Shown piece by piece: positions 4,160-20,073 of a stretch of DNA of 28,203 bases. The stretch comes from a virus: positions 1-28,203 of IMG/VR virus record IMGVR_UViG_3300025030_000361; one strand, 5' to 3'. Made by a program: the position numbers and the translations under genes. Positions within the stretch are counted from its first letter, which is position 1. The number at the start of each line of letters is the position of its first letter. The notes beneath the pieces are model-generated. The model made no database searches and was not told the DNA's origin. It saw only the letters and a list, made by a program, of their open reading frames with translations.

Positions 4160-5509
4160 ATGATTATAGTCGAATCTGCAACCGAATACTCAAATTTTAA
4201 AAAAAACATTACCAACCAACCGTCATTGGTAATACCAATTTATTCTGATCAATACACCCATTCATCAAAAAACCGAATATCGTTTTTATATGTTTGTTTA
4301 TTTGATAAAACCGAGTATATTATTTCATTTCATCACAACGACATAATCGCATGTGACAAATCACTCAACGAAATTCTTAATCCAAACTCAGGATTATTTG
4401 TTTACGAAAAGAAAAAGTTTCTATATCATTTTCATAATTCAAAAATGAATGATATAGATTTAATGCAGTATTTTTCATCTAACCAAATAATTGACTTGGA
4501 ATCGACTACATCTCATGATTTTCTTTCTCGTCGACTATACAAATTTAAAAATCTCAATGACGTAATACCCATAACAAAACATTATGAACGATGTTGTAAA
4601 TTGCGCGACAAATTTTTTTCAATAAAATGGACACCACCAAAATCATATGACTATTACAATGATTTATTAATTGGTGTATTATTTAATATAGAAAAAAATG
4701 GTTTGTTTGTCGATTATAATAAATTCGTGGAGAAATTCGGGCAAAATGACATACAAAATAATTTAACATTTTCCGAGTATAATATCTACACCACAACAGG
4801 CCGGCCAAGTAATCACCATCTTGGAATTAATTATGCAGCACTAAATAAAGAGGATGGTACCCGTTCCGTATTTACCTCGCGCTTCGAAAATAAAGGCTTC
4901 CTAATTCAGTGTGATTATGATGCCTATCACTTAAGATTAATCGCCGAACTAATTGGATATGATTTTCCAAAAAAGATTAGCGTCCATGAATATCTTGGAA
5001 AACAATATTTTCAAAAGGATGAATTAACACCCGAAGAATATGCCGTATCAAAACAAGTGTCATTTCAACAATTATACGGCGGAGTATTACCTGAATACCA
5101 AAATATAAAGTATTTCCAAGAAGTTAAAAAATATATCGATAAACTATTTGGAGAATTCAAAAAAAATACTTATATTAATACAAAGGTGTTTAATCGTGAA
5201 TTACATAAAGAGTTTTTCACCGATATTAATCGCAATAAAATATTTAATTACCTTCTTCAAAATTTCGAAACTGAACGGAACATGACGGTATTATACGAAT
5301 TGATTAAATACTTTAACAAAGTAAAAGCCAAATCAAAATTAATCCTTTACTGCTACGATTCAATTTTATTTGACTACTGCATTGAAGATGGCAAGCAATT
5401 AATTATTGAAACCAAAAAAATTCTTGAACAAGATGGTAAATATCCAATTAAAATAGAAATTGGCTCAAATTACCATAACATGAAAACAACCAAACGATTA
5501 AGCGTATGA
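4160..5509 (+). CDS. Family A DNA polymerase with degenerate exonuclease-like N-terminus
   Basis: This is a DNA polymerase of the Pol I (family A) type, probably the replicative enzyme; T4 itself uses family B. Seen in the sequence: TTGRPSN (about 212-218), motif A D252-Y-D-A-Y-H-L-R, motif B K298-x3-F302-x3-Y306-G and motif C Y399-D400. Both metal-binding aspartates are present. The usual Glu steric gate after motif A is His257, the position of the conserved O-helix Arg is Tyr294, and the His-Asp-Glu of motif C reads Tyr-Asp-Ser. Residues 1-150 align in pattern with the Klenow 3'-5' exonuclease but lack its Asp/Glu metal ligands, so proofreading is probably absent or supplied in trans. At 449 aa it is shorter than Pol I, and no 5' nuclease domain is fused; a separate one lies at 14818. 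It overlaps the next gene by 4 bases (ATGA). Confidence 0.85.
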   Translation: MIIVESATEYSNFKKNITNQPSLVIPIYSDQYTHSSKNRISFLYVCLFDKTEYIISFHHNDIIACDKSLNEILNPNSGLFVYEKKKFLYHFHNSKMNDIDLMQYFSSNQIIDLESTTSHDFLSRRLYKFKNLNDVIPITKHYERCCKLRDKFFSIKWTPPKSYDYYNDLLIGVLFNIEKNGLFVDYNKFVEKFGQNDIQNNLTFSEYNIYTTTGRPSNHHLGINYAALNKEDGTRSVFTSRFENKGFLIQCDYDAYHLRLIAELIGYDFPKKISVHEYLGKQYFQKDELTPEEYAVSKQVSFQQLYGGVLPEYQNIKYFQEVKKYIDKLFGEFKKNTYINTKVFNRELHKEFFTDINRNKIFNYLLQNFETERNMTVLYELIKYFNKVKAKSKLILYCYDSILFDYCIEDGKQLIIETKKILEQDGKYPIKIEIGSNYHNMKTTKRLSV

Positions 5510-7344
5510 CCTCAGCCGAAGAAACATATAGGAAATTAACCGACATAGAGCACGTACTATTACGCCCAGGAATGTATGTTGGTTCGATTAAACCTCACAC
5601 CGAATCAAAATATCTTCTGAATAATAACAATAAATTTGAACTGCAAGAAATTACTTATATTCCGGCATTTCTTAAATTGTTCGATGAAATTATTATGAAT
5701 TCAGTTGACGAACATAAACGGCAAAATTCACGTCTTGACACAATTAAAATAGATATAACCGACAATACTATTTCGGTATGGGACAATGGCGGAATACCCG
5801 TTGTGATACACAAAGAACATAAAGAGTGGATACCAGAAATGATTTTTTCAAACTTAAAAGCTGGTTCGAATTTTAATGACGACACCGACAAGCGTACAGG
5901 TGCAGGATTAAATGGAGTGGGTTCGACCATTACAAACATATTTTCCTCTACTTTTAAAGTGGTTACAGCCGACGGTAAAAACAAATTTACCCAAACCTTT
6001 TCTGATAACATGCATAAGCGTTCGAAAGTAAAGGTAATTCCACATGCACGATATTTTACAGAAATTACATTTACACCTGACTATTTAAAGTTTGGTATGA
6101 TGGCACTTGACGAAATACATACCAAATTAATACATAAACGGGTATTGGATATTGCAGGTTGTAACCCTTCGCTTCGAATATTTTTTAACGGTAAACTTAT
6201 TAAAATTAAGTCATTTAAAGATTATATTAAACACTATGCCGAAGAATTCTTTTACGAAACTGCTCCGGAATGGTCAATTGGAGTTGCATTGTCGGATAAT
6301 GGCTTTCAACAAGTATCGTTTGCAAACTCAGCCGAAACATCAGTTGGTGGTACCCATGTTGAGTATATCATGAATCAAATCACTGATAAACTTAAAGATT
6401 ATTTCAGCAAAAAACATAAAACTGATGTTCGTACTTCTGAATTAAAAAATCATATATTTTTGTTTTTAAATACCAATGTAATTAATCCTGCTTTCTCCGC
6501 ACAAACCAAAGAAGAACTCATCACAGAACCCAAAGATTTTGGTACATCACATTTAGTAGGTGAAAAACTTATCAAACAAATTCTTCATTCAGAAATAGTT
6601 AATTCTATACTTGATTGGATAAATCAAAAAAAATTAGCACAGGACAATAAAATTGCGCGCCAACTTAATCATGGTATGGCGCGAATGAAAGTTGAAAAAC
6701 TTGTTGATGCAAAAAGTACATCACGAAATAATTGTTCACTTATGGTATTTGAGGGAGATTCGGCAATGTCTGCATTTAGAAAATACCGCAACCCAGATGT
6801 ACAGGGGGCATTTTCATTAAGGGGAAAATTTATTAATGCACTTGAATTAACAAATAAAAAACTTGTAGGTAATGATGAGGCGGTTAATTTAATGGCATCA
6901 ATTGGGTTGCGACTTGGAAGTAAAGCAGATCCTGTAGATTTGCGTTATGGAAAAATAATAATTTCGGTGGATGCCGATGTTGACGGGGCTTCTATTGCGG
7001 CATTACTAATAAATTTTTTCTATAGATTTTGGCCGGCGTTATTTGAACGAGGGTTAATATATCGTTTGGAAACACCGATAGTCGTTGTGCAACATCACAA
7101 AACAAAGAAAAAAATATCGTTTTATTCTCAAGAAGAATATGACAAATGGTTACCTACTATAAATGAAAAGGATTATGACCACTCATATAAAAAAGGACTT
7201 GCCGCACTATTAGATGATGAATATAAAGAAATTATTCAAAATCCAAGATTACTACCAATTAATCATGATTCCGAATCAAAAAAGTATTTGGACATTTGGT
7301 TCGGTAAGGACTCAGATTTACGAAAAACTGAAATGCTAAAATAA
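5506..7344 (+). CDS. 39: DNA topoisomerase II ATPase/TOPRIM subunit (T4 gp39+gp60 type)
   Basis: This is the ATP-driven subunit of a phage type IIA topoisomerase, which works with the cleavage subunit encoded next. The GHKL ATPase motifs are clear: RPGMYVGS (20-27), E61 and N65 in EIIMNSVDE, DNGG (93-96) and GAGLNGVGS (132-140). The QTK loop is at 333-335. The TOPRIM domain has EGDSA (416-420) and D489-x-D491-x-D493, so the metal site is complete. In T4 these parts are split between genes 39 and 60; here they are one 612-aa protein, as in many T4 relatives. It starts inside the polymerase stop (ATGA), and the partner gene follows after 4 bases, so the three are likely cotranscribed and coupled. 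The expected role is removing supercoils during replication. Confidence 0.93.
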   Translation: MTSAEETYRKLTDIEHVLLRPGMYVGSIKPHTESKYLLNNNNKFELQEITYIPAFLKLFDEIIMNSVDEHKRQNSRLDTIKIDITDNTISVWDNGGIPVVIHKEHKEWIPEMIFSNLKAGSNFNDDTDKRTGAGLNGVGSTITNIFSSTFKVVTADGKNKFTQTFSDNMHKRSKVKVIPHARYFTEITFTPDYLKFGMMALDEIHTKLIHKRVLDIAGCNPSLRIFFNGKLIKIKSFKDYIKHYAEEFFYETAPEWSIGVALSDNGFQQVSFANSAETSVGGTHVEYIMNQITDKLKDYFSKKHKTDVRTSELKNHIFLFLNTNVINPAFSAQTKEELITEPKDFGTSHLVGEKLIKQILHSEIVNSILDWINQKKLAQDNKIARQLNHGMARMKVEKLVDAKSTSRNNCSLMVFEGDSAMSAFRKYRNPDVQGAFSLRGKFINALELTNKKLVGNDEAVNLMASIGLRLGSKADPVDLRYGKIIISVDADVDGASIAALLINFFYRFWPALFERGLIYRLETPIVVVQHHKTKKKISFYSQEEYDKWLPTINEKDYDHSYKKGLAALLDDEYKEIIQNPRLLPINHDSESKKYLDIWFGKDSDLRKTEMLK

Positions 7345-11348: not shown

Positions 11349-11447
11349 AACGAATAGGAATATGTAACTTTTTTATTATTTGTTTATATAATTTTTAATC
11401 AAAATCAATAAAATTTCTATAAAATAGTAGATATTTTTCACTTTTTG

Positions 11448-11494
11448 ATAGTGTTTGATAAATTCGCATATACTTATATGTATAAAAACACTAT
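11448..11494 (+). repeat. Left subterminal double hairpin of the TnpB element
   Basis: A perfect 9-bp stem (ATAGTGTTT/AAACACTAT) encloses a perfect 6-bp inner hairpin (CATATA-CT-TATATG). It ends 8 bases before the tnpB ATG. Such folded single-strand ends are what IS200/IS605 TnpA recognises, but the hairpin could also hide the ribosome site and limit tnpB translation. Confidence 0.5.
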
Positions 11495-11502
11495 ACTTTA
11501 TT

Positions 11503-12705
11503 ATGCTAAAAGCAATTAAAATAAAACTATATCCTACATTAGATCAACAAACTTATTGCAATAAGTTATTGGGTACATCGCGTTTTATTTATAATAATCT
11601 CTTAGCTTATAAAATTCAACGATATAATGATAACAAACAATCTACTTCATTTAAACAGCTTGGTTCGAAATTAGTATCTCTGAAAACAGAATTTCCATGG
11701 ATTAAAGAAGCACACTCCAAAGTATTACAACAATCCCTATTAAATTTAAAAGTTGCATATAAATCATTTTTTAAAAATGGCACTGGGTTTCCCAACTTTA
11801 AAAATAAAAAAAATAATAAACAATCCTGTAGGTTTCCTATTGATGCTATTGGTAATGTTAAAGGAAATCGAATAACTATCATAAAACAACTTAAAGACAT
11901 TCATTTTAAATGTAGTAGACGGGATGAAAAATACCTCAACAAACATCAATCTTTAATTCATTCTGCAACTTTAACAAAAACTCGGGCTGGGCAATACATT
12001 TTAAGTATTCTAATTGATAAATTAGATACCAAAATTCTACCGTCAACAAATAAAATAATCGGTATTGATTTAGGAATTAAAGATTTTGTTATTACTTCAG
12101 ATAATACCAAATTTAAAAACATCAAAGTAATTCGTAATAATCAAAATAAATTAGCAAAATTACATCGAAATTTATCACGCAAACAACCAAATTCAAAAAA
12201 CAAAGAGAAAGCCAGAATTAAATTGGCAAAGTTTCATGAAAAATTAACAAACATTAAAGAGTACTATTTACATTCTATATCTAACCAATTACTTACCGAA
12301 AATCAAGTGATAGTTATGGAAGATTTAAGTGTAAAAAACATGATGAAAAATCACAATTTAGCACGAAGTATTCAAGAATTAAGTTTATGTAAATTCAAAT
12401 CAATTTTACAATATAAAGCTTCGTGGTATAATCGCGATATCATTTTAATAGATAAATTTTTTCCTTCAACTAAATTATGCTCTGATTGTGGATATAAAAA
12501 CGATGAATTGACATTGTCTAATAGAGAATGGGGTTGCCCATCTTGTGGTGTTATTCACGATCGCGATTTCAATGCGGCTACTAATATAAAGAACGAAGGC
12601 CAAAGAATATTACAAATAGGGATGAGTAGTCCCAAATTAACGACTGTGAAGAGTAACCCGTCAGGTCCTCGCCGAAGCAGTAAAACAAAGGTTGATAGTT
12701 TTTGA
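11503..12705 (+). CDS. tnpB: TnpB, RNA-guided RuvC nuclease of IS200/IS605 type
   Basis: The 400-aa protein begins MLKAIKIKLYPT, the standard TnpB/OrfB opening; an upstream TTG in frame (11455) is rejected because it would extend through the left hairpin. The family is known as an omega-RNA-guided DNA nuclease that cuts next to a short TAM. The RuvC residues are present: Asp189 in IIGIDLG, Glu273 in VIVMEDLS, and DRDFNAATNI with Asp353/Asp355. The zinc ribbon is complete (Cys326, Cys329, Cys345, Cys348). Length and motifs indicate an active nuclease, not a relic. The C-terminal 30 residues are basic and Ser/Pro-rich. The stop codon lies inside the right-end hairpin, as expected where tnpB overlaps its guide RNA. 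No Shine-Dalgarno is evident. Confidence 0.92.
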   Translation: MLKAIKIKLYPTLDQQTYCNKLLGTSRFIYNNLLAYKIQRYNDNKQSTSFKQLGSKLVSLKTEFPWIKEAHSKVLQQSLLNLKVAYKSFFKNGTGFPNFKNKKNNKQSCRFPIDAIGNVKGNRITIIKQLKDIHFKCSRRDEKYLNKHQSLIHSATLTKTRAGQYILSILIDKLDTKILPSTNKIIGIDLGIKDFVITSDNTKFKNIKVIRNNQNKLAKLHRNLSRKQPNSKNKEKARIKLAKFHEKLTNIKEYYLHSISNQLLTENQVIVMEDLSVKNMMKNHNLARSIQELSLCKFKSILQYKASWYNRDIILIDKFFPSTKLCSDCGYKNDELTLSNREWGCPSCGVIHDRDFNAATNIKNEGQRILQIGMSSPKLTTVKSNPSGPRRSSKTKVDSF

Positions 12706-12714
12706 CTATTTAAC
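12590..12714 (+). ncRNA. Candidate omega-RNA scaffold overlapping the tnpB 3' end
   Basis: In this family the guide RNA derives from the tnpB 3' end and the adjacent right end. Here the 3' ~125 bases contain several foldable segments: GGGA-TGAGTAG-TCCC near 12619-12633, GAC...GTC pairing around 12642-12667, and the terminal GTTGATAGT/ACTATTTAAC hairpin. The guide would be the ~16-20 bases after the right end, beginning near 12715. The boundaries are inferred from the family, not read directly. Confidence 0.35.
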
Positions 12715-12824
12715 TGTACTTATAAGCAACTTTTGAATACTTATTAAAAAGGATACACAATAAAAATACAAAAATGACTATGTAAAATTAAAAAATAAAT
12801 GTATATTACAAGTAATTAACAATC

Positions 12825-12832
12825 AATAAATA
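12825..12832 (+). promoter_or_regulatory. T4 late-promoter-like box AATAAATA before SSB
   Basis: AATAAATA lies 25 bases before the SSB start, leaving room for a short leader that carries AAAGGAAG (12847-12854) as a Shine-Dalgarno. This spacing fits a T4-type late or modified promoter better than the copy at 1116. The 150 bases between tnpB and SSB otherwise show only AT-rich, gene-free sequence. Confidence 0.35.
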
Positions 12833-12857
12833 TTAACAATTAAACAAAAGGAAGATT

Positions 12858-13622
12858 ATGAATCTAGCCGAAGTAAAGAAGAAGCTGCTCAGCTTACAGA
12901 GCAAAGCAAAACAACAAGATGGATTATGGAAGCCGTCGGAAGGTGTGCAGGTAGTACGCATCGTACCGTATAAATTCAATACGGATTATCCATTTATCGA
13001 ACTCTATTTCCATTATGGTTTAATGGGCAAAACTTATTTGTCACCGACATCGTTTGGTAGACCCGACCCACTTGTGGATTTTGCCGAAAAATTAAAATCA
13101 TCGGGCTCGAAAGAAGATTACCAATTGTCGCGACAACTTACACCAAAAATGCGTGTATATGCGCCAATACTTGTCCGCGGAAAAGAATCCGACGGAGTTA
13201 AATTCTGGGGATTTGGTAAACAAGTTTATGAAGAACTTTTGGGAATTATCCAAGACCCAGATTACGGTGATATCGCAGACCCAAAGTCAGGAAGAGATTT
13301 TACCATTGAATTTACCAAAGCAACATCGGATAAGGAATTTCCAAAAACTTCGATTCGTGTTAAACCAAATCAAGTACCGGTTTCAACTGATAAAAATATT
13401 ATCATGAAAATTGGTGAGCAGCAAGAAATTACAACTTTCTTTCCGGAACCATCTTATGATGATTTGAAGAATACATTGCAACAATGGCTTGATGGTGATA
13501 AAACACCAAATACCAACGGAGCAACTCCGGTAAAATCCGAAGCAGAAACTGTTTCAAACAAAACTGCAACCACAAAAGTTGATGATGTAGAAGATGCATT
13601 TGACAACTTATTTAACTCTTAA
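12858..13622 (+). CDS. 32: Single-stranded DNA-binding protein (T4 gp32 type)
   Basis: The protein coats single-stranded DNA at forks and recombination intermediates and contacts UvsX and helicase. The 254-aa sequence follows gp32 closely: a basic N-terminal LAEVKKKLLSLQSKAK, VQVVRIVPYK, PFIELYFHYG, SPTSFGRPDP, LVRGKESDGVKFWGFGK and IIQDPDYGDI in the OB-fold core, then a flexible Thr/Asn/Lys linker and an acidic C-terminus (DDVEDAFDNLF) for partner binding. There is no cysteine anywhere, so the zinc site of T4 gp32 is absent and the fold must do without it; it is also shorter than T4 gp32. A clear Shine-Dalgarno (AAAGGAAG) sets the start. uvsX follows after 6 bases, in keeping with a recombination-replication operon. 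Confidence 0.93.
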   Translation: MNLAEVKKKLLSLQSKAKQQDGLWKPSEGVQVVRIVPYKFNTDYPFIELYFHYGLMGKTYLSPTSFGRPDPLVDFAEKLKSSGSKEDYQLSRQLTPKMRVYAPILVRGKESDGVKFWGFGKQVYEELLGIIQDPDYGDIADPKSGRDFTIEFTKATSDKEFPKTSIRVKPNQVPVSTDKNIIMKIGEQQEITTFFPEPSYDDLKNTLQQWLDGDKTPNTNGATPVKSEAETVSNKTATTKVDDVEDAFDNLFNS

Positions 13623-19791: not shown

Positions 19792-19824
19792 AAAACACCA
19801 TGAAAAAATCAGAATTAAAACATT

Positions 19825-19969
19825 TACTAAATCTAAAGAACGAAGGAATTCGAATTCTTAATGAAAATAATTATACGGTGGGAACCACCGAAATTCACGC
19901 CTGTAGAAATATGAATTCAAGTATGGATTCAGCTCAGGAATCACTGTCCTTTAGGGCAGTGTAGTTCAA
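19825..19969 (+). mobile_element. Remnant of an IS200/IS605 TnpB element (3' end only)
   Basis: TAAAGAACGAAGG at 19834-19846 is identical to bases inside the intact tnpB (12587-12599) and in the same codon phase, encoding KNEG in both. The following codons give VGTTEIHAC and SSMDSAQES, a pattern I know from TnpB C-termini. The remnant ends in a hairpin with CCTTTAGG at its tip and TAGTTCAA after it, the usual look of IS200/IS605 right ends. Nuclease and zinc domains are gone. What remains, about 145 bases, is close to the part that encodes the guide RNA scaffold. Confidence 0.65.
19876..19961 (+). ncRNA. Two strong hairpins, possible omega-RNA-like scaffold
   Basis: The first hairpin is CGGTGG-GAA-CCACCG (19876-19890, six perfect pairs). 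The second is CACTGTCC-TTTA-GGGCAGTG (19942-19961, eight pairs with one G-U). In this AT-rich window they are among the most GC-rich stems. Their order and position before TAGTTCAA fit the 3' part of a TnpB guide RNA; the guide would start near 19970. No promoter is seen, so expression would depend on read-through from the mini-gene cluster. Confidence 0.45.
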
Positions 19970-20073
19970 GAATACCGTACAGGTAATTATGTGTCATATG
20001 ATGACATGGAGTATGTAATTAGAAAACTAATTTCTGAATTTAAAATTAAAAAATAAACCAACTAAAACAAGTT

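Follow-up and report, generated by a model that had tools for sequence, protein, structure and literature searches.

Results

The window, as we call the whole 28,203-base IMG/VR virus record analysed here, belongs to a T4-type phage with a class II ribonucleotide reductase and baseplate proteins. A resident full-length tnpB (11503-12705, plus strand; 400 aa from its ATG) carries the Pfam domains OrfB_IS605, Cas12f1-like_TNB and HTH_OrfB_IS605. Further downstream, a short element adjoins a T4-type baseplate gene on its upstream side, and the surrounding genes all lie on one strand. A 54-aa ORF (19800-19964), open from its ATG, runs into this element; its first part (19800-19832, plus strand; MKKSELKHLL) probably represents the start of a small phage gene that has become joined, in frame, with a TnpB stump.

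Sequence comparison confirmed that 19827-19969 derives from an IS200/IS605-type TnpB element, of which it is the 3' end. Of the TnpB itself, about 36-40 C-terminal codons remain (19827-19946, plus strand, including LKNEGIRILNENNYTVGTTEIHAC and SAQES), and residues 368-403 of the intact TnpB of phage locus L090 matched the window in tblastn with 50% identity over 40 aa (E=1.6e-5). The nuclease body and left-end hairpin are absent: the copy has no intact tnpB with RuvC catalytic residues and lacks the left-end hairpin and insertion motif of an autonomous element, and no left-end-like hairpin or inverted repeat occurs within 400 bases upstream. The right-end hairpin and the conserved 3' end of an IS200/IS605 remnant are present. 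Since the right end is retained and the left end is not, the copy is a 5'-truncated remnant rather than a movable miniature element.

The predicted omega-RNA scaffold is complete (19870-19969, plus strand). It consists of helix P1 (CGGTGG-GAA-CCACCG, 19876-19890), helix P2 (CCTG/CAGG, 19900-19903 with 19935-19938) enclosing an inner hairpin (19912-19931), the right-end hairpin P3 (CACTGTCC-TTTA-GGGCAGTG, 19942-19961) and the element 3' end TAGTTCAA (19962-19969). The earlier note had described two hairpins, which are indeed P1 and P3, and had missed P2 and the inner hairpin. The right-end motif pattern and the P1-plus-hairpin pattern each had a single match in the window and none in 100 shuffles. 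The folding energy of the 137-nt stretch was -37.2 kcal/mol (shuffles: -24.1 +/- 3.3; z=-4.0).

Relatives indicated where the element ends. The same element occupies different sites in L090 and L091, and the shared stretch extends from the left-end hairpin (GGCAATTCATCCC..GGGATGAATTGCC) to GTTCACAAA, just after which the match stops. By this boundary and by alignment A1 (below), where relatives end in GGTAGTTCAC or GTTCAA and the window in TAGTTCAA, the 3' boundary of the window element should lie at 19969. The known layout of TnpB elements places the predicted guide, GAATACCGTACAGGTAATTA, at 19970-19989 (plus strand); a second site for it was found in none of the sequences fetched.

Five viral loci matched a DNA pattern written for the tail codons and the hairpin loop: L089-L091, which have an intact TnpB, and L092 and L093, which have no TnpB body. 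A relaxed pattern returned 37 stretches, roughly half of which were unrelated genes, and alignment A1 comprises 18 true members. RNAalifold on A1 yielded three helices with 18 pairs, 11 of which show compensatory changes; single-sequence folds also recovered P2 and P3 and added the inner hairpin. All four structures are unbroken in the window. At model pair 8/20, in P1, it has G-C in place of the C-G or U-A of its relatives. The search pattern fixed P1 letters (columns 9, 10, 12, 13, 15, 16, 18 and 19) and most of the P2 5' arm; the compensatory changes at columns 8/20 and 11/17, in the P2 3' arm and throughout P3 are free of it. Because a TnpA would bind P3 as a DNA hairpin, the conservation of this helix cannot be credited to RNA alone; P1 and P2 are the informative helices.

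Covariance model R2 was built from 14 members, leaving out the window and its nearest relative, L093. Its top site in the window was 19870-19969, matched at full length (77 bits, E=5.4e-16; 94.2 bits with R1), and the resident tnpB gave the second best, at its 3' end (26.1 bits, E=2.6e-4). The window copy thus has the conserved, covarying scaffold helices of a TnpB omega-RNA, which supports its assignment to that type, with a predicted guiding function. The stems passed the covariance test that the earlier note had proposed, and its claim of a TnpB element reduced to the omega-RNA-encoding 3' end was borne out by protein homology, the leave-out model and the compensatory changes in relatives. 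An ordinary small phage protein gene that resembles TnpB and its RNA by chance would, like the 54-aa ORF, be open from an ATG, but the E values of the protein match (1.6e-5) and of the left-out RNA model (5.4e-16) refute this reading, to which we give practically no weight.

No Rfam family scored above its gathering threshold in the window. The best match below threshold, aligned at full length, was HPnc0580, a Helicobacter pylori small RNA (19861-19968, 17.7 bits, E=1.6). This small RNA may be a TnpB-type solo guide RNA in its own right.

The earlier note had also pointed out a 13-base identity between the element and the resident tnpB. The two stretches (TAAAGAACGAAGG, 19834-19846 versus 12587-12599) are identical throughout and share their codon phase, and blastn within the record extended the match to 91% over 22 nt (E=0.02). 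As the parent of the stump, the resident tnpB is ruled out by its tail, its right end and the 38% identity of its product to the TnpB of L090, the nearest clade member. Judging from its sequence, the parent belongs to a separate TnpB clade with a VGTTEI.AC tail. The resident gene has a distantly related omega-RNA-like region (12613-12703, plus strand; 25.8 bits with R1), in which P1 and P2 resemble those of the scaffold while the 3' hairpin and end differ. Because of this difference and the 38% identity, use of the solo scaffold by the resident TnpB is possible but doubtful.

L093, a distant relative of the window phage, carries homologues of the genes flanking the resident tnpB about 100 bases apart (6296 and 6400), the upstream homology being judged by eye. 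No tnpB lies between them, and L093 therefore represents a distant empty site for the resident tnpB (window 11349-12857).

Downstream of the element, the rest of the flanking small gene (EYRTGNYVSYDDMEYVIRKLISEFKIKK*, 19970-20056, plus strand) is present. The earlier note had the surrounding frame resume here; the frame is real, but it differs from that of the 54-aa ORF (19800-20056 spans 257 nt). Pfam, NCBIfam and PHROGs gave no real match for the 54-aa ORF, and tblastn against phage and plasmid records returned only E values above 1. The search for an uninterrupted small gene in relatives that the earlier note had suggested found none, by tblastn or by degenerate pattern. With the baseplate gene as anchor, exact peptides retrieved no relatives in IMG/VR; with the ribonucleotide reductase, neither the small gene nor the baseplate gene lay nearby in the best 80 loci, and the scaffold occurred in 0 of the 41 ribonucleotide reductase-anchored and related loci searched. 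Spacing and strand make it plausible that the element broke a small gene, as the earlier note had proposed. The insertion itself is only inferred, since no uninterrupted relative was found, and its site cannot be defined because the left end is missing.

Relatives of the element occur in other phages, both with and without the nuclease. Intact TnpB genes sharing the tail, scaffold and right end of the window copy lie at L090/L091, L094, L102, L104, L117, L119 and L162, and TnpB-less relatives occur in other IMG/VR phage contigs (L092, L093, L106, L110, L123 and L126). No TNB-domain match was found in the records of L092, L093, L110, L123 and L126, most of which are fragments. The covariance model found further scaffold copies in the same records, although members recruited in this way are biased towards the model's own structure. 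Together, these comparisons show that solo scaffold copies recur in phages.

Most TnpB-less copies resemble PATE/MITE-type elements, with left-end hairpin, scaffold and right end; the left-end hairpin was seen in L164, L169, both L171 copies, L159 at 528, and L160. In a published PATE-like element, 58 nt from the very end of tnpB are likewise combined with a left-end hairpin and the right end (PMC7290912). The window copy could accordingly be read as a non-autonomous transposon of this kind, a short element movable by TnpA in trans. Such elements have both ends and no ORFs, whereas the window copy has only the right end and no left-end hairpin upstream, and we regard this reading as very unlikely.

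The TnpB-less copies also bear on whether such an element is kept as a free-standing guide RNA. Their helices are kept through compensatory changes: across 14 copies, 83/84 cells are paired in P1, 56/56 in P2 and 104/112 in P3, a level reached by 0 of 5000 shuffles, which ignore relatedness. The two TnpB-less copies in G001 are homologous in both left end and scaffold. One P1 pair differs between them at both positions, U-A in one and C-G in the other, and all other differences in their helices preserve pairing. Two large phages each have a full-length TnpB and a TnpB-less copy with closely similar scaffolds. In G006 (244 kb), a 402-aa TnpB (L162) and a copy cut to 46 TnpB codons (L164) share the left end, have scaffolds differing by one base and carry different guides. 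In G004, a 382-aa TnpB (L170) and a TnpB-less copy (L169) have scaffolds near-identical outside P1, where two pairs are swapped from C-G to G-C.

The scaffold nearest to that of the window is in L093 (NYTVGTTEIYACGDMN tail), where window genes 4160-5509 and 12858-13622 have homologues too. Neither the window copy nor that of L093 has an evident left end. L123 and L163, in which no left end was seen either, show decay in P3 or P1 and in the end motif; the window copy shows none.

Several other loci were noted. In L159 (G003:50800-66500; about 500-1850), a TnpB-less element that has both a left-end hairpin and the scaffold stands directly before a tnpB of another clade, apparently inside that gene, whose 5' part is missing; its 83-kb record has four to five scaffold copies, and the only TNB-domain match is in the L159 tnpB. 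G006 encodes seven TnpB proteins and has nine scaffold matches in one phage record. L005, in a 166.9-kb virus record with four TNB-domain matches elsewhere, has a right-end-like motif (GGAATCCCCTTCCTTTAGGGAGGGGGGGTGTCAA, 6092-6124) with no TnpB nearby; it was set aside as a solo scaffold of this family, having only the right-end motif in common.

Discussion

The layout at this locus agrees with that of IS200/IS605 TnpB elements such as ISDra2, in which the omega-RNA (reRNA) scaffold overlaps the tnpB C-terminus and runs up to the right end, with flanking DNA serving as the guide. The window copy departs from these elements in that it lacks tnpA, the left end and the greater part of tnpB. Standalone omega-RNA loci have been reported for IscB and likewise consist of a guide-RNA scaffold with no adjoining nuclease; the window copy differs in being of TnpB type, and no cognate nuclease is known in its record. 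The TldR protein is nuclease-dead and is retained beside its guide RNA, whereas no protein body lies beside the scaffold in the window. TldRs are reported to be phage-encoded RNA-guided repressors derived from TnpB; a TnpB origin, a guide RNA and a phage location are common to them and the window copy (PMC13418256). TnpB processes its own mRNA into omega-RNA (PMC10278001). PATE-like IS605 derivatives are similar in that tnpB is reduced to its final codons and the right end is kept; the described PATE retains the left-end hairpin, unlike the window copy, which is phage-borne (PMC7290912). TnpB acts as an RNA-guided gene drive of insertion sequences in plasmids, a model in which a flank-copied guide cuts element-free relatives; there, TnpB is encoded in cis, unlike at the window copy (PMC11870625). 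We found no paper on TnpB-less omega-RNA units in phages, in a search with subscription literature largely outside its coverage.

For the window copy, the most likely reading is that of an ordinary, recent remnant. Its source would be a copy of an IS200/IS605-type element, with a TnpB of the VGTTEI.AC type, that once stood in or beside a small gene just upstream of the baseplate gene. A deletion would then have taken the left end, any tnpA and the nuclease body; the C-terminal codons, the whole scaffold and the right end are still present in the sequence. We consider such a recent 5' truncation probable, with use in trans as a possible second stage. The remnant is probably transcribed by read-through, because the neighbouring genes are all on the same strand. 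It would be inert without a cognate TnpB, which could come from another element of the phage, a co-infecting phage or the host; with one, it would yield an omega-RNA guided by GAATACCGTACAGGTAATTA. TnpB-less elements in phages with a matching TnpB make such use a realistic second stage. The VGTTEI-type parent was not found in the 28-kb fragment, which is all that is known of the phage.

What counts against a remnant is that the scaffold shows zero decay, with every helix complete and a swapped pair in P1. Selection for a guide RNA could also account for this state, the element being kept as an omega-RNA gene for a TnpB in trans that cuts element-free relatives, in homing or competitor exclusion. 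The intact helices, the pairing preserved in TnpB-less copies and the scaffold pairs of G001, G004 and G006 favour this reading. However, the 28-kb record has no cognate TnpB, the resident TnpB is of another clade with a different RNA 3' hairpin and end, L123 and L163 have decayed, and selection is not measurable on the one window copy. We consider a maintained guide RNA unlikely at this locus. The undecayed copy fits either a young truncation or a maintained guide RNA, which a single copy cannot separate, and the intact scaffold is best read as a sign of recent truncation.

A broader proposal is that large phages have one nuclease and many guides, TnpB-less omega-RNA units, including the window copy, being selected as trans guides against element-free competitor phages. 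We hold this to be rather unlikely. The multi-guide idea is directly testable, because two phages carry a full-length TnpB together with a nuclease-free copy whose scaffold is closely similar. Solo guide-RNA scaffolds in phages would give one TnpB several target sites and would be a natural step from selfish transposon nucleases towards multi-guide systems.
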